64,000 nucleotides of DNA from Rhodococcus tibetensis (GTDB lineage: Bacteria > Actinomycetota > Actinomycetes > Mycobacteriales > Mycobacteriaceae), in assembly GCF_024438035.1 (NCBI RefSeq), contig NZ_JANFQF010000017.1, forward strand, positions 1 to 64,000. Direction: 5' to 3'. A program made the translations under genes and the position numbers. The notes beneath the pieces were generated by a model. That model saw only the letters and a list, made by a program, of their open reading frames with translations, did not search any database and was not told the DNA's origin. Of this stretch, positions 40,065 through 58,361 are shown one piece after another (position 1 is the first letter of the stretch; every line of letters starts with the position of its first letter).

Positions 40065-42209
40065 CTACCACCAGCGGGTGGCTGCTCCGATCTGCCGGTC
40101 GAGTGCGGGGGCGAGGCTGCGCACGTAGGTCGCCGACAGGTGGTGGGAGTCGTGGTAGATGAGGATGTTGCCCTCGACGACACGGCAGATCGTCACGTCG
40201 CAGACGGCGTCGGACAGATCGATCAGATGCACGTCGGGGAAGTCCGCGGCAGCGGCCGCGGCGGGATTGTCCGCGGCCAGTACCGCGTCCCGGGGCATGC
40301 CACACGTGTCGGCGTCGCCGCCGTCGGCCAGGCAATCGATGGCCCGGTAGGGCACCCCGTCCCGGTGCAGCCAGGGGGTGTCGCGGATCCCCAAGAACGG
40401 CAGCCCGAAGTCGGCGTATTTCGTCCACACCTGGATGTAGTCGTCGGGGGTGATGTCGCCGGGCCCGTCGGGGTTGGGGCGGGTTGCGGTGGACAGCACC
40501 CAGTCCGGGCGGTCGTCGCGGAGTCGGTCGAGGACCTCGACGGACCAGTCCCGGCAGTCGGGGTAGGGCTGGTCCCCGAGCATCGGCTCACCCAGACTCA
40601 GCGGGCAACCCATCTTCAGATACGACACGATCCGGATGCCGCGAGATTTGCCGATGGCGTCGAGAGCGGTGAGCCAGTGTTCGGTGTGGGAACTGCCCAC
40701 CACCGCCAGTGTCCGCACCGCGTGGGGGTCACCATAGGTGCAGGCGATCACCGCCCGGGTGCTCATGTCCGAGATGCACCCGTCGAAACTCGACGGCGGC
40801 AGATCCCCGGGCGCCTCGAGCAGACTGGGCCGCATCTTCGCGTGCGGGGTGAAGGCACCGTCGAGCAGTTTCGCTGCCCCGGGGTAAATCTTCGGGTCGA
40901 GTTGACCGACCCGGGACGCGGTTTCCGGATTGTGCCTCAGATACCACTGCCAGGAACCGACCGCGACGATCATCGTGATCCCGACCGCGGTCACCGCCAC
41001 GACCACGATTCGGGCCCGCCGATGCCGGCTCTGCTCATGCTGCGCGGATGCGGGTGTGGACCGGGCGCGCAAGGGCGTTTCCACCCACACATGGGTCAGC
41101 CGCGCAAGGATCAGCGAGACGGTGAGCACGATGAGCCCGCCCACCAGACCTACGGCGGGCCGCTCACGCCAACCGAGATAGAAGATCAGAACCGGCCAAT
41201 GCCACAGATACAGCGCATAGGCGAGCGCACCGAGTTCGACGAGCGGCCGCGAGGCGAGCAGCCGTGTCGCAGTGGGTGCGCTGCGGGCGCGGGAATCGGC
41301 TCCGGCACCGGCCAGGATCAGCGCCACCGCCGCGCCGACCGGGATCAATGCGGCCGGTCCGGGGAACAGGTGCGCCCCGTCCACCATCAGCCCGCAGCCC
41401 GCGATCACCGCGAGGCCGGTGGTCGCGAGCACGGCACGAACGCCACGAGGGAGCGAGATCCGGCCGATCATGCACGCCAGCAGGGCACCGGCCAGGGGTT
41501 CCCACAGCCGGGCTGCCGTGTCGTAGTATGCCCAACCCTGGTGCCGGTGAGAGACCGCTGTCGCATACAGCAGTGACGCCCCACCGGCGACCACGACCAC
41601 CATGGTGATGACCGCCTGCAGCGCGGTAGGTCTACCGATCCGCCGGCACCCGGCGGCCAGCACCCCTACGAGCGCGAGAATCAGCAGGTAGAACTGGCCC
41701 TGCACGGACATCGACCACAGGTGTTGCATCGGGCTGACCGACGCGTCGGCGGCCTGGTAGTCGGCCGCGGTGCGCGCGAGTTCCCAATTCTGCACATACA
41801 GCAGGGAGGTGAGCACCTGATCCGCGGCCGCGCTCCACTGGGTGAACGGGCGCACAATCACGGTCATCGCCACCGTCGCTGCCAACACCACCACCAGGGC
41901 AGGCAGCAGCCTCCGCGCGGTGCGGCTGAGCACCTCCCGCACCGCAGGGCCACCGTCGCCGGACCTGCGCAGCAGCATGCCGGTGAAGAAGAACCCGGAC
42001 AGCACCAGAAACACATCGACCCCGCCGGACACCCGACCGAGCCACAAATGAAAGATGACGACCAGAGCGATGGCCAGTCCCCGCAGCCCATCGAGGTCAT
42101 ATCGGTAGCCGTCGGACACCGGGACAAGCGGCTGGGGCGAAGCGGCCGCCCCGGCAGCGGGGCGGTCGTGCCGAGCGGAGCCGTCACGGGTCTGGTGATC
42201 GGTATTCAA
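40065..42209 (-). CDS. Acyltransferase 3 fused to SGNH domain (OafA/YrhL type)
   Basis: About 714 residues from TTG 42209, whose TTGA overlaps the GT87 stop. The longer frame upstream runs through that gene. Ten or eleven membrane helices start with YRYDLDGLRGLAIALVVIFHLWLG, where the R-G-L and catalytic His of the acyltransferase-3 family are visible, and WSMSVQGQFYLLI follows. The C-terminal about 280 residues are an extracytoplasmic SGNH esterase-like domain with VVGSSHTEHWLTAL (Ser block) and DSHHLSATY (His block). Such proteins O-acylate cell-surface glycans using cytoplasmic acyl-CoA. Coupling to the GT87 gene suggests joint modification of an envelope polysaccharide. Confidence 0.88.
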   Translation of the reverse strand: MNTDHQTRDGSARHDRPAAGAAASPQPLVPVSDGYRYDLDGLRGLAIALVVIFHLWLGRVSGGVDVFLVLSGFFFTGMLLRRSGDGGPAVREVLSRTARRLLPALVVVLAATVAMTVIVRPFTQWSAAADQVLTSLLYVQNWELARTAADYQAADASVSPMQHLWSMSVQGQFYLLILALVGVLAAGCRRIGRPTALQAVITMVVVVAGGASLLYATAVSHRHQGWAYYDTAARLWEPLAGALLACMIGRISLPRGVRAVLATTGLAVIAGCGLMVDGAHLFPGPAALIPVGAAVALILAGAGADSRARSAPTATRLLASRPLVELGALAYALYLWHWPVLIFYLGWRERPAVGLVGGLIVLTVSLILARLTHVWVETPLRARSTPASAQHEQSRHRRARIVVVAVTAVGITMIVAVGSWQWYLRHNPETASRVGQLDPKIYPGAAKLLDGAFTPHAKMRPSLLEAPGDLPPSSFDGCISDMSTRAVIACTYGDPHAVRTLAVVGSSHTEHWLTALDAIGKSRGIRIVSYLKMGCPLSLGEPMLGDQPYPDCRDWSVEVLDRLRDDRPDWVLSTATRPNPDGPGDITPDDYIQVWTKYADFGLPFLGIRDTPWLHRDGVPYRAIDCLADGGDADTCGMPRDAVLAADNPAAAAAADFPDVHLIDLSDAVCDVTICRVVEGNILIYHDSHHLSATYVRSLAPALDRQIGAATRWW

Positions 42210-43528
42210 CGTCCGCCGCCGGGTGTCGTCGACCGAGTCCGCGGTGCGTGGCGGGTCTGGCCAGGTCGGGGGCGCGCCCGAGGACCGAACCGAAACCCTG
42301 ATCCCGTCACGGGGCCACCCCGTCCCCGGCCCTCGGGCACGCAGACCTCGGTCTGCCGCGCGGCGACCCGGCGGTGCAGCAGCACCCCGAAGATGACGAT
42401 CAGCAGCAAACTCCACCCGAAGGTGGTCTTCATGTATTCGGCGGCACGCCCGGCCTCGGGGAATCGGACCGAAAGCCAGCTGTCGTAACTGAGGAACCCG
42501 TAGGCAGCCAGCCAGGCCGGCCAGTTCCGCATCACCGAGTTCGGCAACACCACCGACAGCAACAGCGGTGCCAGCATCATCGAGTAGTACATCTGCCCGA
42601 GCGAGCCGAGCAGGAAAGACCCGGTCAACAGCACCCCGGAGGTGGTGGCGACGAAGAACACCTCATCACCACGGTGATACCGGCACAACAACCACACCGA
42701 GCCCATCACCAACAGCGCGAACAACACTCGCAACCCCGTGATCAGCAGCGGCGGAAGCCCGTAGTAGGTGCCGTTGCCGACGATGGCACTGTTGAAGTAG
42801 TCCCGCGACTGCATCAGATACGGGGCGGTGTGGGTGACAAACGCCCACGGGTCCGCCGCCAGCGGCCACGCCACCGCGGTCAGCACCAGAGGAATCCCGA
42901 GCGCGGTGACGAACACCCGCCACTGTCCCCGTACCAACGGCAGCAGCAGCAACGGCGCCAGGATCGGCTTCACCGCGAAGGTCAGCCCGATCGCCACCCC
43001 CGACCAGTAGTCGCGGCGGCGCAGTAACAGGAACAGGAAGGCGATCTCACCGAGCAGCACGAGACCGTTGATGTTGGTGAAGACCAGCGTGTTGGTCACC
43101 GCCTCCGAGGAAAAGGCAGCGAACAACAGAACCGGTGCGGCGACCGCTCGCAGGCCGAGGCCGAACATGCGCAACAACAGGTACAAGGCCACCACGATCG
43201 CCGCGGTGTTGGCGAGGATGAACGCCCACCTGGACAACTCCGGCGGCAGAACCGCGATCGGGGCGATCAGCAACGTCCCACTCGGCGGATACAGGTAGTG
43301 CGGATCGACCGAGGAGAAGTCTGCGGTATAGACCTCCCGGCCGTTCCAGAACTCCACCGCCGCCGCGTAGACCGGGGCGAAGTCGTCGGTGATGTAGCCG
43401 TTCACCGCCTTGATCAATACCCGATGCAACGCCGTCATCACCGCGACGGGCCACAACACCACAGCGACTAGTTCGGCCGTGCTCCGCGGGCGAGTAATGG
43501 ATGGGTGCACCAGAGACGGTGAATACAT
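42206..43528 (-). CDS. GT87 family polyprenyl-phosphate-dependent glycosyltransferase (AftC-like)
   Basis: This 440-residue integral membrane protein begins at ATG 43528 after AAGGA. The first periplasmic loop contains DDFAPVYAAAVEFWNGREVY followed by DPHYLYPPSGTLL, similar to the arabinofuranosyltransferase AftC (GT87), with acidic catalytic candidates in the D-D-F segment. About ten transmembrane helices follow. GT87 enzymes transfer arabinose or mannose from decaprenyl or polyprenyl phosphate to arabinogalactan, lipoarabinomannan or PIMs. The C-terminal about 45 residues are Arg/Gly/Pro-rich and look non-conserved. It forms an operon with the SGNH acyltransferase. Confidence 0.82.
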   Translation of the reverse strand: MYSPSLVHPSITRPRSTAELVAVVLWPVAVMTALHRVLIKAVNGYITDDFAPVYAAAVEFWNGREVYTADFSSVDPHYLYPPSGTLLIAPIAVLPPELSRWAFILANTAAIVVALYLLLRMFGLGLRAVAAPVLLFAAFSSEAVTNTLVFTNINGLVLLGEIAFLFLLLRRRDYWSGVAIGLTFAVKPILAPLLLLPLVRGQWRVFVTALGIPLVLTAVAWPLAADPWAFVTHTAPYLMQSRDYFNSAIVGNGTYYGLPPLLITGLRVLFALLVMGSVWLLCRYHRGDEVFFVATTSGVLLTGSFLLGSLGQMYYSMMLAPLLLSVVLPNSVMRNWPAWLAAYGFLSYDSWLSVRFPEAGRAAEYMKTTFGWSLLLIVIFGVLLHRRVAARQTEVCVPEGRGRGGPVTGSGFRFGPRARPRPGQTRHAPRTRSTTPGGGR

Positions 43529-43812: not shown

Positions 43813-44029
43813 ATGGCAGTACAACTCGACCCACCCGCGGAGACCATGTCGGTCCGGGCGGCGCTGCGGTCACCGCGCCGGTCCACCATGGACACGCTCT
43901 CGATCATCGCCCCCTACGCATTGGCGATGGCCTTGGTGGGGCTGCTCGAATCCCTGATGACCGCGAAGCTGGTCGACGACGTCACCGACACCCATTCGGA
44001 CAAGACCCGCAAGGGCTGGGGCAGGGGTG
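43813..44029 (+). pseudogene. SulP transporter copy with large internal deletion
   Basis: The frame encodes SVRAALRSPRRS, matching the N-terminus of the full SulP protein at 58.5 kb, joined directly to TLSIIAPYALAMALVGLLES and the following LMTAKLVDD region, matching its middle (around 59.19-59.33 kb). About 600 bases between these parts and everything after GWGRG are missing. The nucleotide match to the intact gene is high across both segments. The open frame runs on to 44181 with unrelated sequence. It cannot form a transporter. Confidence 0.8.
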
Positions 44030-44213: not shown

Positions 44214-44242
44214 TTGCAAACGATAACGATTATCAGTAGCTT
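44214..44242 (+). promoter_or_regulatory. Metallophore operon promoter with Fur-family (Zur-like) operator
   Basis: TTGCAA (44214-44219) and TAGCTT (44237-44242) are 17 bases apart. Their spacer contains the perfect palindrome GATAA-CGA-TTATC (44222-44234), with partial symmetry further out. AT-rich palindromes of this type are bound by Fur-family proteins, and Zur sites of actinobacteria are close to it. DtxR/IdeR boxes have a different consensus (TTAGGNTAGGCTNNCCTAA type) and do not fit. Binding here would block RNA polymerase when metal is plentiful. Confidence 0.6.
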
Positions 44243-44287
44243 TTGCGGGGTCGGGAATTGCGGAAGAACGCGAGCGGAAGGTCACCT

Positions 44288-45574
44288 GTGGCACACCTGT
44301 TGCTGGTGGAGAGCTGGGTCGGCGCGATGGGAACGTTGTTGCCGAGGACGGTTGCCGATCAGGGGGTCGAGTTCACGTTCCTGACGCGACGACCGGAGCA
44401 CTACCCGGAAACCCTGACCGATGGATCTCCGCATCCGTTGCGCCTGGGCCGGGCCGTGGTCACGGCCGAGACCAATGACCCGGTCGCGGCCGTCGATGTG
44501 GCGCGCCGGATTCACGCCGAGGCGCCGATCGCTGGGGTTCTGACCAGCTGCGACTATTACCTGCCCACTGCCGCGAGAATCGCGCGGGGGCTGGGGCTTC
44601 CCGGTCCTGCGCTGGAGGCGGTAGAGATCGCCTGCGACAAGTCGCGTACCCGGGCGGCGTTGGATCGGATGGGGATCCCGGGGCCGCGCCACGCGACCGC
44701 GCCTGTGGCCGACTCGGCTCGGCTCCACGCCGCGGCCGAGGCCGTGGGATACCCCCTGGTGGTCAAGCCGACGGATCTGTGCGCGGGAATGTTCGTGCGA
44801 CGCGCCGACGACTGGCCGACGGTGAAGGATGCGGTCGATGACTTGCGGGGTTTCGCGGTGAATGCGCGTGGACAGCAGCGCAGTCCGGTGGTGTTGCTCG
44901 AGGAATTTCTCGACGGCCGAGAGTTCAGCGTGGAGAGCTGGATTCGGCAGGGCGATATCCACACGGTGGGGGTGACCGACAAGAGTTTGGGCGGGGTGTC
45001 GGGTTTCGTAGAGACCGGGCACATGTTCCCGGCCGACCTGGCCGCCGGGGACCGCGCAGTGTTGGTGGCCGCCGCCGAGGCCGCGATCGGTGCGATCGGG
45101 CTCGATCACGGGGTAGTGCACACCGAGCTGCGGTTGACGACCTTCGGTCCGCGGATCATCGAGATCAATCCTCGTCCGGCGGGCAATCAGATCACCGAGT
45201 TGATCAGGCACGTCACCGGCATCGACCTGCCGCGAGTGGCTGTCGAGCTCGCGCTCGGCCGTGAGCCCGCCACTGTGGCTTCGGAGGCCGAGAACGGTGT
45301 CGCGCGACCGCGCAGTGCCGCGGTGCGCATGCTGGTACCCGAAGAGGCGGGAATCGTCGCGGAACTGCACGGGGTGGATGCGGTCGCGGCGCACCCGGCG
45401 GTGGCGTCATCGGCGTTCAAGGCGCCCGGACATCACACGGGCGCCGGGGTGGACAACAACAGCTACCTGGGCAGTGTGGTCGTCGTTTCTCCGGATCGGG
45501 CCGGGGCCCGGCCACTTGCCGAGGAACTGTTGTCGTCGATCTCGGTCACCTACGGCGAGGTTTCCGCGCGATGA
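44288..45574 (+). CDS. ATP-grasp ligase, first gene of putative metallophore operon
   Basis: About 428 residues. GTG 44288 is chosen because GGAAGG lies six bases upstream. The N-terminal about 110 residues are a Rossmann-like preATP-grasp domain (AHLLLVESWVGAMGTLLPRT). The central part has ATP-grasp features: YPLVVKPTDLCAGMFV with the nucleotide-contacting Lys, VVLLEEFLDGREFSVESWI, and the magnesium motif RIIEINPRPAGNQITELI. Such enzymes (for example BL00235-type and biotin-carboxylase-like amino acid ligases) activate a carboxylate as acyl phosphate and join it to an amine. Here it probably builds a dipeptide or amino-acid amide for a metallophore. The remaining operon genes follow with stop/start overlaps. 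Confidence 0.85.
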   Translation: MAHLLLVESWVGAMGTLLPRTVADQGVEFTFLTRRPEHYPETLTDGSPHPLRLGRAVVTAETNDPVAAVDVARRIHAEAPIAGVLTSCDYYLPTAARIARGLGLPGPALEAVEIACDKSRTRAALDRMGIPGPRHATAPVADSARLHAAAEAVGYPLVVKPTDLCAGMFVRRADDWPTVKDAVDDLRGFAVNARGQQRSPVVLLEEFLDGREFSVESWIRQGDIHTVGVTDKSLGGVSGFVETGHMFPADLAAGDRAVLVAAAEAAIGAIGLDHGVVHTELRLTTFGPRIIEINPRPAGNQITELIRHVTGIDLPRVAVELALGREPATVASEAENGVARPRSAAVRMLVPEEAGIVAELHGVDAVAAHPAVASSAFKAPGHHTGAGVDNNSYLGSVVVVSPDRAGARPLAEELLSSISVTYGEVSAR

Positions 45575-46410
45575 CCATGAGCGCAGAGGCGAATACCGGC
45601 ACCATTGCGTCGCTGCTGGACCGTTATCGCACCGATCCGAGGCTTGTCCCGGCCAGTGATATTGCGGTGTCCGTCGCCTTCACCACTTATCAGGGGGTTC
45701 GGCACGGCGGGCGCAGCGGTGGCTACCGCAATCAGGTGCTCAGCCTGCGGGTGGGTGCGGCGACCGGCTCCTGCGCGGTCGAACCGGGGTCGATGGATCC
45801 GGAGGTGGTGCACGCCTGTGCGGGGGTGCCGGTCACCGATCTTCTCCACCATGAGGATTCGGCCGTGCGGGTCGCTGCTCTCGACGCATATCTGGCGCAT
45901 CTGCGTCCCCACACCAGCGATGCCCGCGTGGAGACGATGCAGGTACCCGCGGGCGATTCAGTGCAGCGCTCACTTGCCCGCGCATGGGCTGTTACCGGGT
46001 TGGTCAATTCTCCGCAGAACGGACAGGTGCTGGTCATCGGGGTGGTCAACTCGCTGCTCGCCTGCTTACGTGATCGCGGTCTGCGCTATGTGCCGTGCGA
46101 CCTGAAGGGCGGGGTCACCGAATGGGGCGAGGCGATCGTCACCGACTTCACCGAGGCACTCGACGACTGTGATGCGGTGCTGGCCAGCGGAATGATGCTC
46201 GGCAACGGCACCTTCGACCGGCTACTCGCCCTCGTGGCGGCGTCCGGCCGGCCGATTCCGATCGCGGTGTTCGCGCAGAGCGGGGCCGCGGTGGCCCGCG
46301 AGCTGCTCGGGCGCGGAGTCGATGCCCTCTCCGCGGAGCCGTATCCGTTCTTCTGGCTCACCGGAGAGGCCAGCCCGGTCCACCTGTATCGCGGGTCATG
46401 TCCGCGATGA
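45571..46410 (+). CDS. DUF4213/DUF364-type putative heavy-metal-chelation protein
   Basis: This 279-residue protein starts at an ATG overlapping the ligase stop. The N-terminal about 115 residues contain an enolase-N-terminal-like DUF4213 part (SVAFTTYQGVRHGGRSGGYRN) and a helix ending AVRVAALDAYLAHL, corresponding to the conserved Ala-x-x-N-A helix of the family. The C-terminal Rossmann-like DUF364 part includes GQVLVIGVVNSLLACLRDRG and ILDDCD-like DDCDAVLASGMMLGNGTFD. The one structurally studied member was proposed to have a role in metal chelation from fold and site only. In a metallophore context it may bind the metal, or it may be an enzyme acting on the chelator backbone. Confidence 0.7.
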   Translation: MTMSAEANTGTIASLLDRYRTDPRLVPASDIAVSVAFTTYQGVRHGGRSGGYRNQVLSLRVGAATGSCAVEPGSMDPEVVHACAGVPVTDLLHHEDSAVRVAALDAYLAHLRPHTSDARVETMQVPAGDSVQRSLARAWAVTGLVNSPQNGQVLVIGVVNSLLACLRDRGLRYVPCDLKGGVTEWGEAIVTDFTEALDDCDAVLASGMMLGNGTFDRLLALVAASGRPIPIAVFAQSGAAVARELLGRGVDALSAEPYPFFWLTGEASPVHLYRGSCPR

Positions 46411-47480
46411 CCGTGATCGGACCGCTGGCACGGGTCGGGCACAGCCCGCTCGTGCGGATCCACACCCCGGTGCCCCGGCCCCATCCAGGCTATTTCGCGA
46501 AGATCGAGTCGCTCGGCTTCGGCGGCCTCAAGGCACGGTCGGCGCTGTCGATGCTGGTCGGTGCCCGCCGGCGCGGTGAGCTGCGGGTCGGCGCGCGGAT
46601 CGTCGAATCCACCAGCGGCACCCTGGGAGTGGGATTGGCGTACGTGGCACAACCACTCGGTCACCCCCTCACCCTGGTGGTCGACCGCGAACTCGAACCC
46701 TCTATGCGCAATCTTCTGAAGGCGCTGGGCGCGACCCTCGAGATCGTCGAGACACCCCATCCCACCGGCGGGTGGCAACAAGCCCGACTCGACGCCCTGC
46801 ACCGCATCCTGGCAGCCGATCCGGGTGCGTACTGGCCCAACCAGTACGACAACCCCGACAACGCCGCCGGCTACCACGGCTTGGCCGACGAAATCGTCGA
46901 GGGCCTGGCCAGGCAAGGTATCGATCGGGTCGATGCACTGGTGTGCAGTGTCGGGACCGGCGGTCACAGCAGCGGTGTCGGACTGCGGTTGCGGCAGGTA
47001 TGGCCGGACCTGCGGATCATCGGGGTCGACGCGGTGGGGTCGGCAATCTTCGGTCAGCCTGCCGCCAGCCGGGTCATGCGTGGTCTCGGCAGCAACGTGC
47101 ACCCCGGCAACGTGCAGTACGGGATGTTCGACGAGGTCCACTGGGTGGGCCCGCGCGAGGCCGTGCACGCCTGCCGGGCCCTGGCCCGCGGCGGCTTCCA
47201 CACCGGCGGCTGGTCCACCGGTGCGGCCGCGACCGTCGCCGGGTGGGCCGCCGCCCGGTGGCCCGGCACTGTGGTCACCATCTTCCCGGACGGCCCGGAC
47301 CGCTACCTGCGCAGCATCTTCGATGACGACTGGTGCCACCGGCACCGTTTCCTCGACCCTCCACGCACATCACCACACGAGATCGACGACTGTCACGACC
47401 CCACCGGGTGCTGGACCCGATGCCAATCGGTGCAGCCGCCGCACCCGATCACCGATAAGGCGGAGGTATCGACGGTATGA
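46398..47480 (+). CDS. Cysteine synthase-like PLP enzyme (SbnA/CysM fold)
   Basis: This 360-residue fold-type II PLP enzyme starts at ATG 46398, or at ATG 46407, which overlaps the preceding stop as ATGA. Lys45 in FGGLKARSAL is the expected Schiff-base Lys, STSGTLGVGLA is the substrate loop and CSVGTGGHSSGVGLRL the PLP-phosphate loop. The family includes O-acetylserine sulfhydrylases and SbnA, which condenses O-phosphoserine and glutamate in staphyloferrin B synthesis. An analogous beta-replacement with an amino acid nucleophile would give an aminopolycarboxylate building block. The C-terminal about 50 residues are Cys/His/Asp-rich (DDCHDPTGCWTRC) and unusual for the family, possibly a metal site. 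Confidence 0.82.
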   Translation: MSAMTVIGPLARVGHSPLVRIHTPVPRPHPGYFAKIESLGFGGLKARSALSMLVGARRRGELRVGARIVESTSGTLGVGLAYVAQPLGHPLTLVVDRELEPSMRNLLKALGATLEIVETPHPTGGWQQARLDALHRILAADPGAYWPNQYDNPDNAAGYHGLADEIVEGLARQGIDRVDALVCSVGTGGHSSGVGLRLRQVWPDLRIIGVDAVGSAIFGQPAASRVMRGLGSNVHPGNVQYGMFDEVHWVGPREAVHACRALARGGFHTGGWSTGAAATVAGWAAARWPGTVVTIFPDGPDRYLRSIFDDDWCHRHRFLDPPRTSPHEIDDCHDPTGCWTRCQSVQPPHPITDKAEVSTV

Positions 47481-48502
47481 GGCTGACCTGGACCGTCGGG
47501 ACCCTCGACCTGGCAACCCCGTTCCGGATCAGCCGCGGGGTGATGTCCACGCGCGAGGCCGTCACGGTCACCGCGACCGATCCCGCGACAGGGTTGTGTG
47601 GCCGCGGCGAGGTCGTCACATCGGTATACGCGCGACTGGATGTAGCGCGCATCGACACCGAACTCCGTGCAGTCGACGTGCGGGACGACGACTCCATCAG
47701 CCTGGACGACGCTCTCGCCCAGATGCATCCGGCGGTCGCGGCAGCGGTGTGGTCCGCGATCGCCGACCTGCAATCCTGTATGGACGGCGTGGCGGTGGCC
47801 ACCCACCTCGGGTTGCCGCTGCCCGCTCAGGTGCCGATCGCCCGCACCGTCGGAATCGGGACACCGGAGGAGATGGGCGCAGAGGCGGCCGATCTGGTCG
47901 GGCACGGATTCGGCCTGTTGAAGGTCAAGGCGGACAGCGACGCGGCCGAGTCGGTGCGGCGGCTGACGGCGGTGGCTGTGGCAGCGCCCGGCGCTGAACT
48001 GATCGTCGACGCGAACGAGGCCTGGACCGTGGGAAGCGCCCTGTCTGTGCTTGCCGACATACGTGGGTTGCCGGTCGTGGCGCTCGAACAACCGCTGCCC
48101 GCCCGAGACCGCGACGGGATACGGGAGCTGCGCGGCCGCACCGAGATTCCGATCATCGCGGACGAGGGCCTCCACGCCATGGCCGATCTGGACGGGCTCT
48201 GCGGTCTGGCGGATGCGGTGAACATCAAGCTGCCCAAGTGCGGCGGCATCTACCGGGCCCACGAACTCGCCACCGCGGCCCGCGACCGCGGCATGGACGT
48301 GATGCTCGGCTGCCTGGTGAGCAGCTCGCTGAGCATAGCGCCCGCGGTGCATTTGGCGTCGCTGGCGCGGTGGTGCGATCTGGATGGGCACCTGCTGCTC
48401 GCCCGGGACCCGTGGACCGGGCTGGGCGGCGAAGACGGCGTGTTGCGCCCGAGCGGGCGGCCCGGCCTGGGCGTGCAGCGCCCCGGGAACGGGGGATCTT
48501 GA
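47477..48502 (+). CDS. Dipeptide epimerase-type enolase superfamily enzyme
   Basis: This 341-residue protein starts at ATG 47477 overlapping the previous stop. It belongs to the muconate-lactonising subgroup. Catalytic Lys149-x-Lys151 lies in LLKVKAD, metal ligands are Asp178 (DANEAW), Glu204 (LEQPL) and Asp229 (ADEG), and the second catalytic Lys251 is in NIKLPKCGG. Asp301-Leu-Asp303 near the end matches the D-x-D motif that binds the alpha-amino group in L-Ala-D/L-Glu and related dipeptide epimerases. All catalytic residues are present, so it should invert an alpha carbon in a dipeptide or N-substituted amino acid. That fits an ATP-grasp product in the same operon. Confidence 0.87.
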   Translation: MRLTWTVGTLDLATPFRISRGVMSTREAVTVTATDPATGLCGRGEVVTSVYARLDVARIDTELRAVDVRDDDSISLDDALAQMHPAVAAAVWSAIADLQSCMDGVAVATHLGLPLPAQVPIARTVGIGTPEEMGAEAADLVGHGFGLLKVKADSDAAESVRRLTAVAVAAPGAELIVDANEAWTVGSALSVLADIRGLPVVALEQPLPARDRDGIRELRGRTEIPIIADEGLHAMADLDGLCGLADAVNIKLPKCGGIYRAHELATAARDRGMDVMLGCLVSSSLSIAPAVHLASLARWCDLDGHLLLARDPWTGLGGEDGVLRPSGRPGLGVQRPGNGGS

Positions 48503-49758
48503 TGACCGAAACGCAGTCCGCTACAGGAACACTCGCGCTGCTGCGCAGCTTTCCCCGCTCGGTGCAGCTGCTGGTGCTCAACCAGTACGGCGTCAATACC
48601 GGCTTTTACATGCTGGTGCCCTATCTGTCGATGCACCTGACCGGGAATCTGGGCCTGTCCCTGGCGATCACCGGCCTCGTCCTGGGTGTCCGCACCCTCA
48701 GCCAGCAAGGATTGTTCCTGATCGGAGGCACCGCCGCCGACCGGCTCGGACCGCATCGGGTCATCATCGCCGGCTGCGCCCTGCGGTCGGTGGGTTTCGC
48801 GGTGTTCGCCTTCGGCACCAGCGTGCCGCTGCTACTGCTCGCCTCCGTCCTGTCGGGACTGGCGGGGGCACTGTTCAACCCGGCCGTGCGCTCCTACATC
48901 GCGGTCGCCGAACCGACCCGGCGCGCGGAAGCGTTCGCGGTGTTCAACGTTTTTGCCCAAGCCGGGGCGCTGTCCGGGCCGCTGATCGGCAGCGCCCTGC
49001 TGGCGGTGGACTTTCGCACCGTCGCGATCGCGGCGGCGGTGATCTTCGCCGCCCTCACGCTGGCGCAGCTGCGGTTCCTGCCCGCCCACCCGGTCGAACG
49101 CGCCGACACGACGGTGCTCCGCGGTTGGGGTGCGGTCCTGGCCAACCGCAGGTTCGTGCTGTTCACCGTTGCCATGCTCGGAATGTTCGCCCTGCAGACC
49201 CAGATGTATCTGGTGTATCCGGTACTGGCCGGGCGGATCACCGACTGGGGTGGTGCGGTCGCGGTGCTGTTTCTGAGCACCACGGTCTTCAGCCTGCTAG
49301 CTCAGGTTCGGCTGACCCGTTGGTTCGATCGCCGCACTCGCCGGGGCACCGCCATCACCGCGGGGCTGGCGTTGATGGGGGCCGCGTTCGTGGCAGTACT
49401 GCCAGTCCTGTGGGCCGACCGCGGTCACAGCGTCGGTGAGATCGTCCTGGCGTTGACGCCGTTGGTGCTCTCCGCCCTGATTCTCGAGGCGGGGATCATG
49501 ATCGCCCAGCCGTTCGTGATGGAACTGATTCCCTCGTACGGGGATTCGAGTATCTCGGGAACCCTGTTCGGAATGTTCTACCTCGTCTCCGGGATCGCCG
49601 CCGCCGGCGGCAACGCCCTGATCGGGTACGGCATCGACCTGGGCAACGGGTGGCCCGGCGCACTGGTGTGCATCACCCTTGCCTGGGGATCGGCGGCCGC
49701 AGTGTGGTTGCTGCACCGTCGCAATCTGCTCGCCGACCCGGCCGGAGCACCGATATGA
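48502..49758 (+). CDS. MFS transporter, probable metallophore exporter
   Basis: This 418-residue protein starts at ATG 48502, sharing one base with the upstream stop (TGATG). Twelve helices are predicted, with NQYGVNTGFYMLVPYLSMHL in helix 1 and the loop GGTAADRLGPHRVI after helix 2 (motif A-like, with the conserved Asp-Arg). It resembles multidrug exporters of the MdtH/YajR-like type. Because a complete importer follows, this gene is the natural candidate to secrete the metal-free chelator. Direction is inferred from context. Confidence 0.85.
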   Translation: MTETQSATGTLALLRSFPRSVQLLVLNQYGVNTGFYMLVPYLSMHLTGNLGLSLAITGLVLGVRTLSQQGLFLIGGTAADRLGPHRVIIAGCALRSVGFAVFAFGTSVPLLLLASVLSGLAGALFNPAVRSYIAVAEPTRRAEAFAVFNVFAQAGALSGPLIGSALLAVDFRTVAIAAAVIFAALTLAQLRFLPAHPVERADTTVLRGWGAVLANRRFVLFTVAMLGMFALQTQMYLVYPVLAGRITDWGGAVAVLFLSTTVFSLLAQVRLTRWFDRRTRRGTAITAGLALMGAAFVAVLPVLWADRGHSVGEIVLALTPLVLSALILEAGIMIAQPFVMELIPSYGDSSISGTLFGMFYLVSGIAAAGGNALIGYGIDLGNGWPGALVCITLAWGSAAAVWLLHRRNLLADPAGAPI

Positions 49759-50582
49759 CCGCAGCCGAGGCGCGGAACCTGCTGACCGACAACCCAGCAC
49801 TGTACGAGGCCCGCTTTCCCGACCCCGACCACACCGCTGCCAGGTTCGTCGACGACATCCTGCGGGCATATTTGCGCTCCGAGGTGGTCGGCGAGGGGAC
49901 CCGCCCGACGTCGGTGCTGGACCTGGGCTGCGGCACCGGCCGCGACCTGGGATACCTGGCCCGAAAGGGGTATCGCTGCCACGGCATCGACCAGTCCCCG
50001 GCGATGGTGCGCTACGCGCAGCAGAAATACGAGGGCGTCACCGCCGCGGTCGGTGACCTGCGGGACTTCCAGGTCGGTGCACGGTTCGACGCCATCACCT
50101 GCCTGGACAGTGCCCTGCTTTACTGCCACACCGACGACGAACTGGAATCGTGCCTGCGCTGCGCCCGGGCTCACCTGCGCGCCGGTGGGCTCCTGATCGC
50201 GGAGATGCGCAACGGCGCCTTCTTCCTCGGCAGCACCGAACTCCTCGACGCCCCCACCCACTCTTCCTTCACCTGGCACGGGCACAGCTGGCGGGCGGAG
50301 ACCACCCTGTGGATCGACCATGCCGCCCAGCTACTGCGCCGCCGCAGGCAGTGGCAGATCCCCGATTCCGTCGAACCGCTCGTCCAGACCTCGGCCTGGC
50401 GGTTGCTGTTCCCCGTGGAGCTGACCGGCCACCTGCGCCGCGCCGGATTCGCGGTGCGCGCCGTGTTCGACACACACGGGCCCCGCACCGAGACCGGCTG
50501 GCCAGGCCCAACCGCCCTGGCCGATGCCGGTGCGAGCACGTTGTCCGGCGACCGGATGCATGTGATCGCCGAGGCTATCTGA
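49755..50582 (+). CDS. Class I SAM-dependent methyltransferase
   Basis: This 275-residue protein starts at ATG 49755 overlapping the MFS stop. The SAM-binding motif I is SVLDLGCGTGRDLGYLARKG (residues 53-72), with an acidic loop (GIDQSP) after strand 2 and GDLRDF after strand 3. The C-terminal half is typical of small-molecule N- or O-methyltransferases. In the operon it would methylate an amine or carboxylate of the product. Tailoring may change metal selectivity or export. Confidence 0.85.
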   Translation: MTAAEARNLLTDNPALYEARFPDPDHTAARFVDDILRAYLRSEVVGEGTRPTSVLDLGCGTGRDLGYLARKGYRCHGIDQSPAMVRYAQQKYEGVTAAVGDLRDFQVGARFDAITCLDSALLYCHTDDELESCLRCARAHLRAGGLLIAEMRNGAFFLGSTELLDAPTHSSFTWHGHSWRAETTLWIDHAAQLLRRRRQWQIPDSVEPLVQTSAWRLLFPVELTGHLRRAGFAVRAVFDTHGPRTETGWPGPTALADAGASTLSGDRMHVIAEAI

Positions 50583-50632
50583 CCATTCCGCCGACCCCGC
50601 TTTCGAATTCACTGTTCAAGGAGAAACCCCCG

Positions 50633-52213
50633 ATGAATCCGGTCCCCCGATCCGCACTGCCCCCGCTGCCTCACCTGAGTCGGCGTTCGTTCCTCGGCCT
50701 CGGCGCCGCCGTCGGCGGCGCCGTGCTGCTCGGGGCCTGCAGCACCGGCGGTGACACCGCGCCCTCGACGACCGAGGTACCCCGGGACGGCGGCCGACTG
50801 CGGGCGGTATTCTCCGGCGGCGGCGCACAGGAAGTGCTGGACCCGCACAAAACCAACCTGTACGCCGACGTCGCCCGCGCGAACGCGCTCTACGACAAGC
50901 TCGTCGAATATGGCGACGACCTCGGCCCGGTTGCCAGGCTGGCGACCGCCTGGCGACCGAACGCCGACGCCACCATGTGGACCGTGGAGTTGCGCCCGGC
51001 GGTGTTCCACGACGGGCGCCCGGTGCGGGCCGCGGACGTGCTGTACTCCTACCAGCGGATCCTGGACCCGAAGAACGCGCTGCGGCCGCGGGCCTCGCTC
51101 GAAATGATCGACATCGGCCGCTCCCGTGCCATCGACGAGCGCACCATCGAATTCGTGTGCGCCCGCCCGTGCGGGGACCTGGCGAATGTGCTCGCCGCGT
51201 TCGGCGCCTACATCATTCCCGAGGGCACCACCGACTTCACCCGACCGGTCGGCTCCGGGCCGTTCACCTTCGTCTCGTTCGAGCCGGGCCGATCCTTCGT
51301 TGCCGCCCGGTTCGGTGATTACTGGGACGGTGCCCCACATCTGGAGGAACTGGAGATCCTCACCGCCCCGGACGAGACCGCGCGGATCAACGCCCTGCTC
51401 GGCGGGCAGGTGGAGTACGCCGACGACCTCGGGGTGACCTCGGCCCGCACCTACGCCACCGATGCCCGCGTGCAGATTCTGCGGTCGCCACGCAGTGCGA
51501 TGTCCGGGTTCGCGATGAAGGTGGACCGGCCGCCCTTCGACAACCTGGATCTGCGGCGGGCGATGTTCGCCCTGGTCGACCGCGACGAGCTGGTGTCCAC
51601 CGTGCTCGGTAGTACCGGTGTGGTCGGCAACGACCTGTTCGGTAAGGATGCCAAGTACTACGCCGATGATCTGCCCCAGCGCAGCCTGGACCTGGATGAG
51701 GCGAAGGCGCTGATCCGCAAGGCCGGCGCCCTGAACACCACCATCGACCTGCAGACCACCGGTGCCACCAACGGTTTCGTCGAGGCCGCGAACATCCTCG
51801 CCGAACAGGCCGGACGTGCCGGACTGAAGATCGACGTGAAAGTCGGTGAGGGCTCGACATATTGGACGCGGACCCTCGACGAGGGTGTGCTGTCGAGTTT
51901 CCGGTCCGGGGCCATGCCCATCGAAACTCATCTGGCGCAGCGGATGCTCACGTCGTCGTCGAAGAACTACACCCAGTGGCGTCGCCCCGGCTTCGATGCG
52001 TTGTTCGCCACCGCGAGTGAAACCACCGACGAGGACGCCCGGGCTGGCGCGTACCAGCAGATGCAGTCGCAACTACACAGCGAGGGTGGCCTGCTGGTGT
52101 GGGGGTTCTCCGACGGTCTGCACGGTCTGGCACCGAATCTGGCCGGGATGGCCCAGAATGCTCCCACCAACACCCTCGGGTACGCCCGATTCGACAAGGC
52201 CTGGCTGGGGTGA
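50633..52213 (+). CDS. Peptide/nickel-type ABC transporter substrate-binding lipoprotein, Tat-exported
   Basis: This 526-residue protein starts at ATG 50633 behind AAGGAG. The N-terminus has the twin-arginine motif SRRSFL (Arg17-Arg18), a hydrophobic stretch and lipobox L-G-A-C with Cys36. The rest is an SBP_bac_5 domain (LATAWRPNADATMWTVELRP, then GRPVRAADVLYSYQRILDP). Relatives bind oligopeptides, nickel complexes or opine metallophores (CntA). Tat export suggests folding, perhaps with a ligand, before secretion. In this operon the likely ligand is the loaded metallophore. The 50-base gap before it is the only sizeable one in the cluster. Confidence 0.9.
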   Translation: MNPVPRSALPPLPHLSRRSFLGLGAAVGGAVLLGACSTGGDTAPSTTEVPRDGGRLRAVFSGGGAQEVLDPHKTNLYADVARANALYDKLVEYGDDLGPVARLATAWRPNADATMWTVELRPAVFHDGRPVRAADVLYSYQRILDPKNALRPRASLEMIDIGRSRAIDERTIEFVCARPCGDLANVLAAFGAYIIPEGTTDFTRPVGSGPFTFVSFEPGRSFVAARFGDYWDGAPHLEELEILTAPDETARINALLGGQVEYADDLGVTSARTYATDARVQILRSPRSAMSGFAMKVDRPPFDNLDLRRAMFALVDRDELVSTVLGSTGVVGNDLFGKDAKYYADDLPQRSLDLDEAKALIRKAGALNTTIDLQTTGATNGFVEAANILAEQAGRAGLKIDVKVGEGSTYWTRTLDEGVLSSFRSGAMPIETHLAQRMLTSSSKNYTQWRRPGFDALFATASETTDEDARAGAYQQMQSQLHSEGGLLVWGFSDGLHGLAPNLAGMAQNAPTNTLGYARFDKAWLG

Positions 52214-53160
52214 TCCTCGCCCGCTACGCCGGCACCCGGCTCGCGGTGGGACTGGCCCAGGTCCTAGGGGTGGTCGTCGTCGTCTTCACCATCGCCGCCG
52301 CGCTGCCCGGTGATGCCGCGGTGGTCATCGCCGGTGACGACGCAGACCCGAAGCGGATCGCGCAACTGCGCGAGCTCCTCGGCCTGGACCGGCCGCTGCC
52401 GGTGCAATTCGGTCACTGGCTGACCGGGCTACTGCACGGTGACCTGGGCACCTCGGCGGTTTCCGGGCGACCCGTCGCCGACATGCTGGGGGTGGCGCTG
52501 GCGCCGACACTGACGCTCGCCGCCCTGGCGTTCGTGGTGCTCGTGCCGCTGGCGCTTCTCCTCGGGGTGGCGGCCGCGGCGCGCCGCGACCGCCCGGTCG
52601 ACCGAACCATCACCGCCCTGGCCGTAGCCCTCTACGCGGCACCGGAATTCGCGATGGCGATCGTGCTGGTCGCGGTGTTCGCGGTCTGGCTGGGATGGTT
52701 CGCCCCCACCGCCGTCGGCGCCGGCGGGTCGCTGCTGCTGCAACCCCAGTTATGGGTGCTGCCGGTGCTGGTGTTGGTGATCCGGCCTGTGTGCTCGCTG
52801 ACGCGGCTGGTGCGCGCGTCGATGATCACCACGTTGGAATCGGAGTACATCCGGCACACCCTCCGGCTCGGGGTACCGATGCGCCGGGTGATCTGGCGGC
52901 ACGCCCTGCCCGGCTCCCTGACCCCGGCCTCCCAGCACCTCGCGCGGGTCACGGACTGGCTACTCGGCGGCGTCGTGGTCGTCGAAGCGGTTTTCGCGCT
53001 GGGCGGACTCGGCCAGGTGCTGGTCGCTGCGGTCAGTAGCCGCGACCTCCCGTTGTTGATGGGGTTGGTGGCGGTGTTCGCCTTGGTCACGGTGACGGTG
53101 AACACGGTCGCGGACATTGTGGCCTACCAGCTCAATCCGGTGGCAGGAGTCGCCGCATGA
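52210..53160 (+). CDS. ABC transporter permease 1 (DppB/NikB type)
   Basis: This 316-residue protein starts at GTG 52210 overlapping the stop of the binding protein. Six helices are predicted. The first extracytoplasmic loop has the DppB-like LRELLGLDRPLPVQFGHWL followed by GDLGTS, and the cytoplasmic EAA-like loop reads RHALPGSLTPASQHLAR. It pairs with the next gene product to form the membrane channel of a peptide/nickel-class importer. Confidence 0.92.
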   Translation: MILARYAGTRLAVGLAQVLGVVVVVFTIAAALPGDAAVVIAGDDADPKRIAQLRELLGLDRPLPVQFGHWLTGLLHGDLGTSAVSGRPVADMLGVALAPTLTLAALAFVVLVPLALLLGVAAAARRDRPVDRTITALAVALYAAPEFAMAIVLVAVFAVWLGWFAPTAVGAGGSLLLQPQLWVLPVLVLVIRPVCSLTRLVRASMITTLESEYIRHTLRLGVPMRRVIWRHALPGSLTPASQHLARVTDWLLGGVVVVEAVFALGGLGQVLVAAVSSRDLPLLMGLVAVFALVTVTVNTVADIVAYQLNPVAGVAA

Positions 53161-54002
53161 GCGCCCCCGATCGGTCGCAGCATGTCCGCCGGCCGAAGAT
53201 CCCGGCACGGATGCTCGTCGGTGTCGGGCTGACCGCGGTCCCGCTCGCGGTCGCGGTACTCGGCCCCCTGATCGCCGGTGACACCAGCCGGGGCCCGGCG
53301 TTCACCCAAGGCGAGAAGTGGCTGCTCGGCACCGATTCCGAGGGCCGCGACGTCCTGACGCAGGTACTGCTCGGCGGACGCTCGCTGGTGATGGTGGCCG
53401 CGGCCGCGGTAGTGCTGACCTATCTGCTCGCCGTGCCCTGGGGAGTGGCGGCCGCGACCGCCCGCCGCCGGATCGTCGACGAGATGCTGATGCGACCGTT
53501 GGATCTGCTGCTGTCGCTGCCGTCGATGATGCTGCTCCTGCTGATCGTCGCGATCACTGACGCCGATCAGGTTGTGCTGGCGGCGGTGGTGGCGGTGCTG
53601 CTTTTCCCGGATGCCGCGCGTCTGGTGCGGGCCAGCGCGCTGCACGGCGCGCACACCCCGGCCATGGAAGCGCTGATCCTGCAACGCGAAACCTGGTGGC
53701 GCCGCCACCTCGGCTACCTGGGCCGCTCACTGTTGCCGGTCCTCGCCGCGGACGCCGGCCTGCGGTTCGTCGGCGCAATCTATCTGGTCGCCTCCGCCAG
53801 CTTCCTCGGTGTGAGCGCGGACTCCGCTGGCACCGACTGGGCGGTGATGATCGACCGCAACCGCGCCGGCCTCACCCTCGTCCCCTGGGGGGTGATCGTG
53901 CCCGCGGTGCTGATCATCACCCTCGCAATGGGCGTGAACCTGCTGTTCGACTCCGGGGCCCGCGCGGCCGCCCGCGAACTGCTGACAAGGAAACAGCATT
54001 GA
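53157..54002 (+). CDS. ABC transporter permease 2 (DppC/NikC type)
   Basis: This 281-residue protein starts at ATG 53157 overlapping the first permease stop. It carries the DppC signature LLGTDSEGRDVLTQVLLGGR near the N-terminal membrane segment and an EAA-like loop (RHLGYLGRSLLPVLAADAGL). Five or six helices are predicted. It is the second channel subunit. Confidence 0.92.
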   Translation: MSAPDRSQHVRRPKIPARMLVGVGLTAVPLAVAVLGPLIAGDTSRGPAFTQGEKWLLGTDSEGRDVLTQVLLGGRSLVMVAAAAVVLTYLLAVPWGVAAATARRRIVDEMLMRPLDLLLSLPSMMLLLLIVAITDADQVVLAAVVAVLLFPDAARLVRASALHGAHTPAMEALILQRETWWRRHLGYLGRSLLPVLAADAGLRFVGAIYLVASASFLGVSADSAGTDWAVMIDRNRAGLTLVPWGVIVPAVLIITLAMGVNLLFDSGARAAARELLTRKQH

Positions 54003-55453
54003 CCGACATTCTCCCGGCAGCCGCGTCCGCTCCTGCCCGTGACACCGCGATCCGGGTGCGCGGGCTCACCGCCCGCACCCGAGGCCGGATCCTCGTCGAC
54101 GATATCGACCTCGACATCCCCGCAGGTGTCGTCACCGCCCTCATCGGCGCCTCCGGCAGCGGAAAGACCACCACCGCACTGGCCCTGATCGGTGAGCACC
54201 GGCCCGGCGTCGAGGTGAGCACCAACAGCGTGCGCGCGGACGGGGTGCTGTTCGGGTACGTGCCCCAACAACCCTCCTCGGTGCTCAACCCGGCACTGCG
54301 GATCGGCACCGTACTCGGTGACATTGCCCGCGCCGCTCAGCGGCAAGGTAACCGGGCGAGCGTCCCCGACGCTCTCGAGCGGGCCGGATTCCCGTCGGAT
54401 CCGGGCATGCTGCGCCGCTACCCCCACCAACTCTCGGGCGGACAGCAACAACGCCTCGTCATCGCGCAAGCCCTGCTGACCAACCCTACGTGCCTGATCC
54501 TCGATGAGCCCACCACTGGACAGGACCCGATCAACCGGGCAGCCATCCTCGACGAAATGCTGCGACTGCGCGGCCAGGGGCTCACGATCGTGCTCGTCAC
54601 CCACGACCTGGACGCCGTTCACCAGGTAGCCGAGCACGTGATCGTCATGGCCGAGGGGCGCGTGATCAACGCCTGCGACACCACGATCCTGCCCGCCCCG
54701 GCCCCGTCACCGGTCCCACGGGCGGGCGCCGCGACGAGGAACCGCACCACCCCGGCCGCCAACCGACTGGAGCTGAACGCTGTCACCGCCGGGTATCGCG
54801 CGACCGCCGTACTGCAGGGCTTTTCGCTGTCGATAGAAGCGGGGGAATGCGTGGCCTTGGTCGGCCGGTCGGGGTGCGGCAAGTCCACCGCCGCGCGGGT
54901 GGCCGCGGGCCTGCACCCACCCACAGCCGGGGGCGTGTTCCTCGACGGGGTTCCGGTGGCGGGATCGGTGCGTCGGCGTACCCGCGATCAGCTGGCCGAT
55001 ATCGCGTACGTCTTCCAGGACGCCAAGGCCGCGTTCGACCCGTACCGCAGCGTGTGGGGACAGATCGTGCGCGGGCCGAGACGCCTGCGCGGCGACACTG
55101 ACCGGGAGGCGGCCGCGGCAGCCCGTCGCGCGCTCGATCGGGTCGGCCTTCACGAGCAGATCGCGCACCAGCGCCCCGGAGCCCTCTCCGGCGGCGAGGC
55201 GCAGCGCGCCGCGCTCGCCCGTGCCCTGGCAGCGGCACCGACGGTCCTGATCTGCGACGAAATCACTACCGGCCTCGACCCGATCTCCCAGCGGCGGGTG
55301 CTTGACGTTTTGGCGGATCTCACGCGCAGCCAACACCTGGCTCTGCTGGTGATCAGCCACGACGCGGCCGTGGTGGACCGGGTCGCCGACCGGGTCGTCG
55401 ACCTGCACAGCGGCGCCAGCGACCCCGGACGCCTCCGGTTCGTCGAGGAGTGA
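53999..55453 (+). CDS. Fused double ABC ATPase of the peptide/nickel-type importer
   Basis: This 484-residue protein starts at TTG 53999 (TTGA overlap). Two complete ATPase domains are joined by a Pro/Ala linker. Domain 1 has Walker A GASGSGKTT (residues 50-58), signature LSGGQQQR and Walker B CLILDEPTTG. Domain 2 has Walker A GRSGCGKST, signature LSGGEAQR and Walker B VLICDEITTG. It corresponds to DppD plus DppF (or CntD plus CntF) in one chain and powers the two permeases. It is the last gene of the operon. Confidence 0.92.
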   Translation: MTDILPAAASAPARDTAIRVRGLTARTRGRILVDDIDLDIPAGVVTALIGASGSGKTTTALALIGEHRPGVEVSTNSVRADGVLFGYVPQQPSSVLNPALRIGTVLGDIARAAQRQGNRASVPDALERAGFPSDPGMLRRYPHQLSGGQQQRLVIAQALLTNPTCLILDEPTTGQDPINRAAILDEMLRLRGQGLTIVLVTHDLDAVHQVAEHVIVMAEGRVINACDTTILPAPAPSPVPRAGAATRNRTTPAANRLELNAVTAGYRATAVLQGFSLSIEAGECVALVGRSGCGKSTAARVAAGLHPPTAGGVFLDGVPVAGSVRRRTRDQLADIAYVFQDAKAAFDPYRSVWGQIVRGPRRLRGDTDREAAAAARRALDRVGLHEQIAHQRPGALSGGEAQRAALARALAAAPTVLICDEITTGLDPISQRRVLDVLADLTRSQHLALLVISHDAAVVDRVADRVVDLHSGASDPGRLRFVEE

Positions 55454-56987: not shown

Positions 56988-57878
56988 TCAGGCGGGGAGG
57001 CGAAACAGCCAGCCTTGCCGTAGGCGGGTGAGCAGGCTGTAGGTCAGCAACGAGCCGCCGATCGCGGCGGCGGTCACCAGGAGCGGGCCGAGCAGTAACC
57101 GGTGCCGGTCGGTGAGGTCGGCGCCCAGGTGTGTGGCACCGACGACGCGGATGCCGAGCGCGATCTCGTGGAGCAGGTAGACGGCGGCGAATCCGGTGGC
57201 GGCGAGGGCGGCGCGGGCCGCGGTGGAGGCGGCGGCGAGCAGGTGGATCAGGGTGGGCAGGTGTATCCCGAGGATGAAGAACACCAGGAGCGAGACGATG
57301 TTGTCCCAGGACCAGCTGAGGATTTCGATCCGGGAAGAGGACACCGCCAGCACGGTCGCTGCCAGTAGCTGTACCGGCGGGGCGATGCTGCGGGCGAGCC
57401 GGGTGAGAGCGGTGAAGACGATGAGGGCGTAGAGGAACCACAGACCGTTGTGCGGCACGATCAGGGCCGTCAGCAGATTCCAGGGACTCGATGTCTCACC
57501 GGTGCCGGAGGTGGCCGGGAACACCGTGAAGAACGCGAATCGCAGTGCCGTCCAGAGCAGGTACAGGTAGATCAGCGGCAGCAGCCGCCAGCGCAGCACC
57601 GTCGACCACGGCAACGCCAGCGTGGAGGCGGCGAACAACCCGGCGGTGAGGAAGAACAGGGGCATCCGGATGGGCTCGAGGGCGGCGTTGACCTCATGCC
57701 AGCGACCGTCGGCGAAGCCGCGGACCACCATGAAGTTGGTGCTGTGCAGCAGCACGACCAGCGCGATGCTCGCACCCTTGGCGACATCGACCCAAGGCAC
57801 CCGCACCGCGGTGGACCGGGCGGCGGGCAGGGAAGGAAGCGGGGGTGGGGTCGGGGCGCCGTTGGTGGCGGAGGGCAC
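56988..57878 (-). CDS. Acyltransferase 3 family membrane protein
   Basis: This 296-residue protein starts at GTG 57878. It begins with a Pro-rich stretch, then RVPWVDVAKGASIALVVLLH with the catalytic-type His of PF01757, and has eight to ten membrane helices (for example HNGLWFLYALIVFTALTRLA). There is no SGNH domain, unlike the enzyme at 40 kb. It would O-acylate a membrane or envelope substrate. It lies convergent to the spermidine-synthase-like gene and downstream of the broken merR on the same strand. Confidence 0.8.
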   Translation of the reverse strand: MPSATNGAPTPPPLPSLPAARSTAVRVPWVDVAKGASIALVVLLHSTNFMVVRGFADGRWHEVNAALEPIRMPLFFLTAGLFAASTLALPWSTVLRWRLLPLIYLYLLWTALRFAFFTVFPATSGTGETSSPWNLLTALIVPHNGLWFLYALIVFTALTRLARSIAPPVQLLAATVLAVSSSRIEILSWSWDNIVSLLVFFILGIHLPTLIHLLAAASTAARAALAATGFAAVYLLHEIALGIRVVGATHLGADLTDRHRLLLGPLLVTAAAIGGSLLTYSLLTRLRQGWLFRLPA

Positions 57879-57931
57879 AGCTGATCACAGTTCCTTGCCG
57901 GGGAAGGGGAGGGGGCGGTTGGCGGGTGTCT

Positions 57932-58282: not shown

Positions 58283-58331
58283 GGTGCGGTCCTTCGAGAC
58301 GAGGTGGTGGGGTGAGGTGCTTCACCCCAAC

Positions 58332-58361
58332 TCGACCCTACCCTCCGGTGAGGGTAGGGTC
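58332..58361. promoter_or_regulatory. sulP promoter overlapping a perfect 12-4-12 palindrome (MerR-type operator)
   Basis: GACCCTACCCTC (58334-58345) and GAGGGTAGGGTC (58350-58361) are perfect inverted repeats separated by CGGT. TCGACC (58332-58337) and TAGGGT (58355-58360) form a possible -35/-10 pair with 17-base spacing for sulP. The arrangement is that of MerR-family operators sitting over the promoter. A second, 7-base inverted repeat (GGGGTGA/TCACCCC, 58309-58328) lies closer to the merR start. Confidence 0.6.

Follow-up and report, generated by a model that had tools for sequence, protein, structure and literature searches.

A candidate Zur-controlled metallophore operon of Rhodococcus tibetensis built on DUF364 and an SbnA-like enzyme

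A run of ten co-oriented genes in Rhodococcus tibetensis combines biosynthetic enzymes, an exporter-like protein and a complete importer, and raises the question of what is made, sent out and taken back, and for which metal. The genes, here called A to J, occupy positions 44288-55453 on the plus strand of the window (the whole stretch of 64,000 nucleotides analysed, from contig NZ_JANFQF010000017.1), and 8 of the 9 junctions overlap, as tightly packed as an earlier note on this DNA had described them. That note had assigned the products to an ATP-grasp ligase, a DUF364 protein, a cysteine-synthase-like enzyme, a dipeptide-epimerase-type enzyme, a major facilitator superfamily (MFS) transporter, a methyltransferase and an importer, all families that matches in Pfam, the Protein Data Bank (PDB) and NCBIfam support, and had proposed a small amino-acid-derived chelator, made without a nonribosomal peptide synthetase (NRPS), that leaves the cell through the MFS protein and is taken up again. 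This proposal is the one we favour: judging from sequence comparison, we put at roughly 0.8 the probability that the operon, under Zur, makes, exports and imports a metallophore. The metallophore would very probably be small, non-NRPS and zinc-binding, and its route new. The reading is strengthened by conserved Zur-type boxes, by the same core standing behind a B12 riboswitch in a sister operon, and by three loci that carry only the genes for synthesis and export. The operon, its conservation, the boxes, the families and folds, and the riboswitches of the sister operon were all computed.

A Zur-type operator before a conserved operon

About 50 nt upstream of gene A, at 44218-44238 on the plus strand, lies a near-palindrome, AAACGATAACGATTATCAGTA. 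A regular expression for it matches 46 of 84 upstream regions, and a matrix, built from 24 distinct sites of these same operons, gives a score of at least 20 in all 71 sequences with gene A (70 distinct), with the boxes of 25 of the 70 loci lying outside the training set (scores 20 to 34). In a first control, 600 random pieces gave a median of -7 and a 95th percentile of 8, the highest scorers being real boxes; with those boxes excluded, 1000 random pieces, which could still include boxes of the third type discussed below (for example those of loci L011 and L012), gave a 99th percentile of 6.6, and three pieces reached 20. The operon box itself scores 35.1 bits, and no other independent site in the window exceeds 12 bits.

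Since the matrix was trained on these operons, the independent test is the genome from which the window comes. There, a search by pattern with up to one mismatch, rather than by matrix scan, returned five sites, the operon box and four others. Two of these (28 and 24 bits) are flanked on one side by an L28 gene and on the other by a CobW gene that is followed by a type B L31 gene, with an S18 gene adjoining; we infer that the L28 and S18 genes are zinc-independent copies. One belongs to a ZnuA/AztC zinc-importer region, where two additional boxes bring the total to three (23, 22 and 20 bits), and the last, at 13 bits within an open reading frame, is taken as chance. The operator before gene A thus resembles those at the L28, L31 and zinc-importer genes of the same genome. 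The list of Zur targets given for Streptomyces coelicolor in PMC6103462 includes rpmB2, rpsR2, rpmE2, znuABC and yciC, but not azt. Because three of the four other sites adjoin genes of the kinds that Zur targets in that species, the box is best read as a predicted Zur operator, in a genome that encodes four Fur-family proteins. The Fur-family box of the earlier note is present, narrowed here to Zur, which makes zinc the first-choice metal.

How widely the operon is kept was followed through gene B, the DUF364 gene, which occurs in 6 of 101 genomes (the source genome, itself included, and its relatives). A DUF364 profile matched 31 of 394 genomes sampled evenly across the class: 10 matches exceed 420 bits and belong to the clade of the window, 20 score 245-286 bits and make up a second clade, and one is marginal. 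Two peptide patterns, run against the genomes of 84,980 species, picked out 462 stretches encoding a relative; the best 80 of these were taken, from Rhodococcus, Streptomyces, Actinokineospora, Saccharopolyspora, Actinopolyspora, Nonomuraea and others, and together with five earlier loci these make the 85 loci compared, 84 of them distinct (L010 equals L059). Of the 85, 70 have gene A, 13 are without it and two (L011, L012) are of a different type; DUF364 is present in 85 of 85 by selection, since the loci were retrieved through it. The earlier note had named the co-occurrence of the ATP-grasp, DUF364 and epimerase genes as its check, and all ten genes keep the same order and strand at 59 of the 65 loci with room for them (58 of 64 without the duplicate), the other six being incomplete, two through loss of the methyltransferase alone and four through larger losses. 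Two operons look naturally broken: that of Nonomuraea roseoviolacea (L085, 10714-11295), in which the cysteine-synthase-like enzyme (PALP) is fused into permease I, and that of Streptomyces sp. NRRL F-2580 (L019, 11814-14413), in which most genes after the epimerase are gone or cut. Matches to gene B were also found in 9 of 72,556 plasmid records, the top one 91% identical and from Rhodococcus sp. ZPP, and as the two plasmid regions examined differ in their neighbours and are annotated in generic terms, the operon probably moves as a cassette.

A reduced sister operon and its riboswitch

The 13 loci without gene A come from Saccharopolyspora, Actinopolyspora, Prauserella and one Pseudonocardiaceae bin. 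They lack ligase, epimerase and methyltransferase and keep DUF364, PALP and MFS in 13 of 13. Where there is room to judge (12 loci), nine read DUF364-PALP-MFS-binding protein-permease-permease-ATPase; the other three hold DUF364, PALP and MFS alone, followed by genes outside the operon and with no importer downstream, a content that fits synthesis and export. Within 600 bp of the 13 reduced operons there is no Zur-type box (matrix scores below 4), and directly upstream of each, on the operon strand, stands a cobalamin riboswitch (RF00174, 85-103 bits against a gathering score of 31.5). Rfam found none in the window or in L011, L012, L019, L084 and L085, and the 70 loci with gene A gave no match on the operon strand when searched for the riboswitch signature.

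These arrangements bear on two rival explanations. One could suppose that the operon imports and remodels a chelator made by others, the MFS protein expelling spent ligand, given that an importer lies within the operon and that ligase, epimerase and methyltransferase could modify what is taken up; ATP-grasp ligases and SbnA-like enzymes are bond-building, however, and the three riboswitch loci with DUF364, PALP and MFS but no importer downstream fit synthesis and export, so we regard such piracy or catabolism as improbable. Still less credible is a dipeptide antibiotic or peptide-utilisation pathway, with a bacilysin-like ligase, a murein-type dipeptide epimerase and a Dpp importer. The relatives of L-amino acid ligase and dipeptide epimerase and the oligopeptide-type importer speak for it, whereas the Zur-type box in every sequence with gene A speaks against it, as does the loss of ligase and epimerase from the riboswitch operons while DUF364, PALP and MFS stay, by which the peptide enzymes are not the core.

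Cobalamin riboswitches usually govern B12 synthesis, B12 uptake or cobalt uptake. As the riboswitch operon holds no B12 gene, cobalt is its likeliest cargo, and the reduced operon, on this sequence-based argument, probably scavenges cobalt. We therefore compared 27 genomes, all 13 with the reduced operon and 14 of the 70 with the full type, picked for taxonomic spread. CobN is encoded in 13 of 13 and 13 of 14, respectively, CbiM in 4 of 13 against 12 of 14, CbtA in 3 of 13 against 12 of 14, and NicO in 6 of 13 against 5 of 14 over cut-off (6 of 14 at E 0.001). CbiM, NicO and CbtA are missing altogether from 6 of 13 reduced-type and 0 of 14 full-type genomes (Fisher p = 0.006, for genomes that are mutually related and in many cases drafts); the other 7 of 13 do have another importer, and near sisters differ, Actinopolyspora alba having CbiM and NicO and A. 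righensis neither. With such kinship, drafts and differences, the pattern is suggestive of a cobalt cargo, and no proof of it.

A quick DUF364 tree of 59 sequences (27 full, 13 reduced and 19 third type) joins the reduced type and the full type as sisters (Shimodaira-Hasegawa-like approximate likelihood-ratio test, SH-aLRT, 91 and 80) and places the third type outside both (SH-aLRT 100). A Cys-rich C-terminal tail (DPC...CxxC) ends 8 of the 9 reduced-type PALPs aligned (L020, L024, L027, L030, L032, L047, L067 and L080) and none of 12 full-type rows; it is a possible metal site.

The third type was examined in 19 of the 20 second-clade genomes. Here DUF364 is paired with a remote PALP, whose identity to gene C is about 28% in both L011 and L012; in L011 the top family model is still SbnA. 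A GHMP-kinase-type protein was called in 15 of 19 loci, and a small methyltransferase-like protein, a divergent MFS and a FecB/FecCD-type importer are often nearby. Of the 19 loci, 17 carry Zur-type boxes scoring more than 20 bits, usually placed at the MFS/operon promoter or ahead of the importer; L132 and L144, the latter at a contig end, have none, and the cluster of L147 adjoins cobW, S18 and L28 genes. In the window the operon box alone exceeds 20 bits with this matrix. Across all types, then, DUF364, an SbnA-like PALP and an MFS protein recur with two kinds of importer and two metal-linked controls. Three loci show further variation. L132 (8013-15171) is a hybrid, with third-type DUF364 and PALP, a PhyH dioxygenase gene and a Nik/Opp-type importer in place of FecCD. 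In L141 (2018-5371) a B12-riboswitch-like signature, found by regular expression, precedes a binding protein and FecCD permeases beside the DUF364 cluster. The binding protein of L011 (11429-12421) has as its nearest model "putative F420-0 ABC transporter substrate-binding protein" (177 against a cut-off of 392), and proteins named after that model might import metallophores.

That ligase and epimerase are present under Zur-type control and absent under the riboswitch fits a tailoring layer; the methyltransferase co-occurs with them but is the sole gene absent from two full-type loci. DUF364, PALP and MFS, common to all types, point to a two-enzyme core with an exporter. We consider it an even bet that DUF364 and the SbnA-like PALP form the core of a new metallophore class re-targeted between metals, in which the full operon would make a zincophore, the reduced operon of Saccharopolyspora, Actinopolyspora and Prauserella a "cobaltophore" replacing or backing CbiMNQO, NicO and CbtAB in B12-making cells, and ligase, epimerase and methyltransferase would supply zinc-specific tailoring.

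The gene products and a proposed pathway

Gene A (44288-45574, 428 aa; PF13535, PF18603) is an ATP-grasp amino-acid ligase of the LAL_C2 kind. Its top PDB match is the L-amino acid ligase BL00235 (3vot, E 4e-32), and its top NCBIfam match is the ATP-grasp half of PRK02186, an ATP-grasp/argininosuccinate-lyase model (200.8 bits against a cut-off of 625). Gene B (45571-46410, 279 aa) fits the DUF364 fold (PF04016), enolase-N-like plus Rossmann-like, shared with Dhaf4260 over nearly its whole length, at a sequence score of 22.9 against a cut-off of 23. From structure and genome context, PMC2954201 proposed a role for DUF364 in heavy-metal chelation, in which the enzyme would catalyse a condensation or a hydrolysis during the making of a siderophore-like compound; the compounds named there are flavins, pterins or other siderophores, whereas here the partner is an SbnA-like pyridoxal phosphate (PLP) enzyme and control is of the Zur type or by B12 riboswitch.

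That PLP enzyme is gene C (46398-47480, 360 aa; PF00291). The SbnA structures 5d84-5d87 are its top PDB matches, and its PLP lysine K45, invariant among 21 aligned sequences, aligns with that of SbnA, as do R130 and Y150 with SbnA R132 and Y152, which we take to be two of the three residues recognising O-phosphoserine. SbnA itself joins O-phosphoserine and glutamate into an N-linked diaminopropionate (Dap) derivative. Gene C has Gly at the position of SbnA Ser185 and STSGT for STSGN, scores 240 bits against the cut-off of 349.95 of the SbnA equivalog TIGR03945, and has no SbnB-type partner in the operon. The cysteine-synthase-like enzyme of the earlier note has SbnA as its nearest solved structure, but on sequence it is SbnA-like and not SbnA, and with such changes in the substrate loop SbnA chemistry may not apply and the substrates may differ. 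By analogy, the PALP product could, with no SbnB partner, itself be a chelator.

Gene D (47477-48502, 341 aa; PF13378) encodes a dipeptide-epimerase-type member of the enolase superfamily, with KxK, D, E, D/E and K motifs discernible by eye, the L-Ala-D/L-Glu epimerase 1jpd as top PDB match (E 9e-40) and every NCBIfam match under cut-off. Gene E (48502-49758, 418 aa; PF07690), kept in the reduced operons, is the MFS transporter and putative exporter, and gene F (49755-50582, 275 aa; PF13649) a class I S-adenosylmethionine-dependent methyltransferase. The importer, genes G to J, is of the Nik/Opp/Cnt type by NCBIfam comparison, each match lying under its cut-off: a family-5 solute-binding lipoprotein (G, 50633-52213, 526 aa; PF00496) with NikA/CntA-like matches and, by eye, the signal RRSFLG..LLGAC; two Opp/Nik-type permeases (H, 52210-53160, 316 aa, Opp2B nickel permease 212 bits; I, 53157-54002, 281 aa, Opp2C 104 bits; both PF00528); and a two-ABC-domain ATPase resembling a NikD/NikE fusion (J, 53999-55453, 484 aa; PF00005 in two stretches; NikD 270 bits, NikE 268 bits).

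From these parts a pathway can be sketched, in which we infer the binding by Zur, the direction of transport, the order of reactions, the metal, the product and all of the chemistry. In zinc shortage Zur would come off its operator (44218-44238), and genes A to J would be co-transcribed. The PALP would couple an activated serine to the amine of an amino acid, giving a Dap-like aminopolycarboxylate, and DUF364 would finish the minimal chelator, B and C being the minimal biosynthetic set. The ATP-grasp enzyme would then add a residue, the epimerase invert an alpha-carbon and the methyltransferase methylate, to yield a product tuned for zinc. Gene E would export the chelator, and its zinc complex would return through lipoprotein G, permeases H and I and ATPase J. 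The specific chemistry of the three biosynthetic steps is tentative, and more likely wrong than right.

Several points weigh against a Zur-controlled metallophore operon as a whole. The matrix was trained on the operons that it scores, and the genome-wide search used the pattern in place of the matrix; six full-type loci are incomplete, and an importer is missing downstream in three of the reduced ones; neither a sigma-70 promoter nor a terminator turned up in consensus scans of the two operon ends; the substrate loop of gene C departs from SbnA; and, to our knowledge, DUF364 has solved structures but no known reaction.

Relation to known systems

Staphylopine and pseudopaline systems are zinc-responsive and, like the present operon, encode biosynthesis and export together, staphylopine also having a Nik/Opp-type ABC importer. 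Unlike them, the operon is built on DUF364 and the SbnA-like PALP: a Pfam search of its ten proteins at E 0.01 found no nicotianamine-synthase-like or opine-dehydrogenase match, no NRPS module and no IucA/IucC synthetase, and the opine, NRPS and NRPS-independent (NIS) siderophore classes were set aside. The same search found no ornithine-cyclodeaminase or argininosuccinate-lyase-type gene, so that the absences listed in the earlier note hold within the operon; outside it, contig C20 of the genome encodes one homologue of ornithine cyclodeaminase. Bacilysin and other L-amino-acid ligase pathways share the BL00235/BacD kind of ligase with gene A and differ in its partners, here PALP, DUF364 and a metal-type importer, and in the zinc-type regulation.

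A closer likeness is offered by the actinomycete aminopolycarboxylates ethylenediamine disuccinate ([S,S]-EDDS) and its relative EDHA. Their pathways may use a C-N lyase and are not known to use DUF364. EDDS is a Zur-controlled, non-NRPS, non-NIS zincophore according to PMC4993170 and PMC6103462. One could thus argue that our operon is another member of that class, all the more as the best NCBIfam match of gene A belongs to an ATP-grasp/argininosuccinate-lyase model and an SbnA-like enzyme with no SbnB could yield aminopolycarboxylates directly. The argininosuccinate-lyase-type and ornithine-cyclodeaminase genes are, however, not in the operon, and DUF364 is in all loci compared, though by selection; we think a known EDDS/EDHA-like product unlikely and prefer a new route.

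The surroundings of the operon may carry traces of duplication. Just upstream, at 43891-44029, lies a 139 bp fragment of a SulP sulfate-permease gene, 88% identical to 59186-59324 within the full SulP gene at 58490-60031, 3 kb downstream of the operon, which may have landed in or beside a duplicated SulP region. Acyltransferase-3 and GT87 glycosyltransferase genes occur on both flanks (40065-43528 and 56988-61272), as if a surface-glycan locus had been duplicated or split around it.

We found no earlier description of the operon among the papers listed in searches of an open-licence library (subscription papers, among them those on the EDDS/EDHA genes, fall outside this scope), nor is it described in the portions consulted of PMC12161575, PMC7438024, PMC10320115, PMC10920908, PMC10486106, PMC6103462, PMC4993170, PMC12971057, PMC4046660 and PMC2954201; the terms "cobaltophore" and "cobalophore" were likewise not found in that library. 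If the reading is true, DUF364 would gain a concrete pathway and a partner amenable to in vitro work, and Streptomyces and Rhodococcus would have an added non-NRPS metallophore route, in operons that may escape present cluster rules. Should the riboswitch branch hold as well, it would be, to the extent that our literature searches reach, the first metallophore system whose control points to cobalt, and would offer a natural experiment in how chelator and importer together switch metal.

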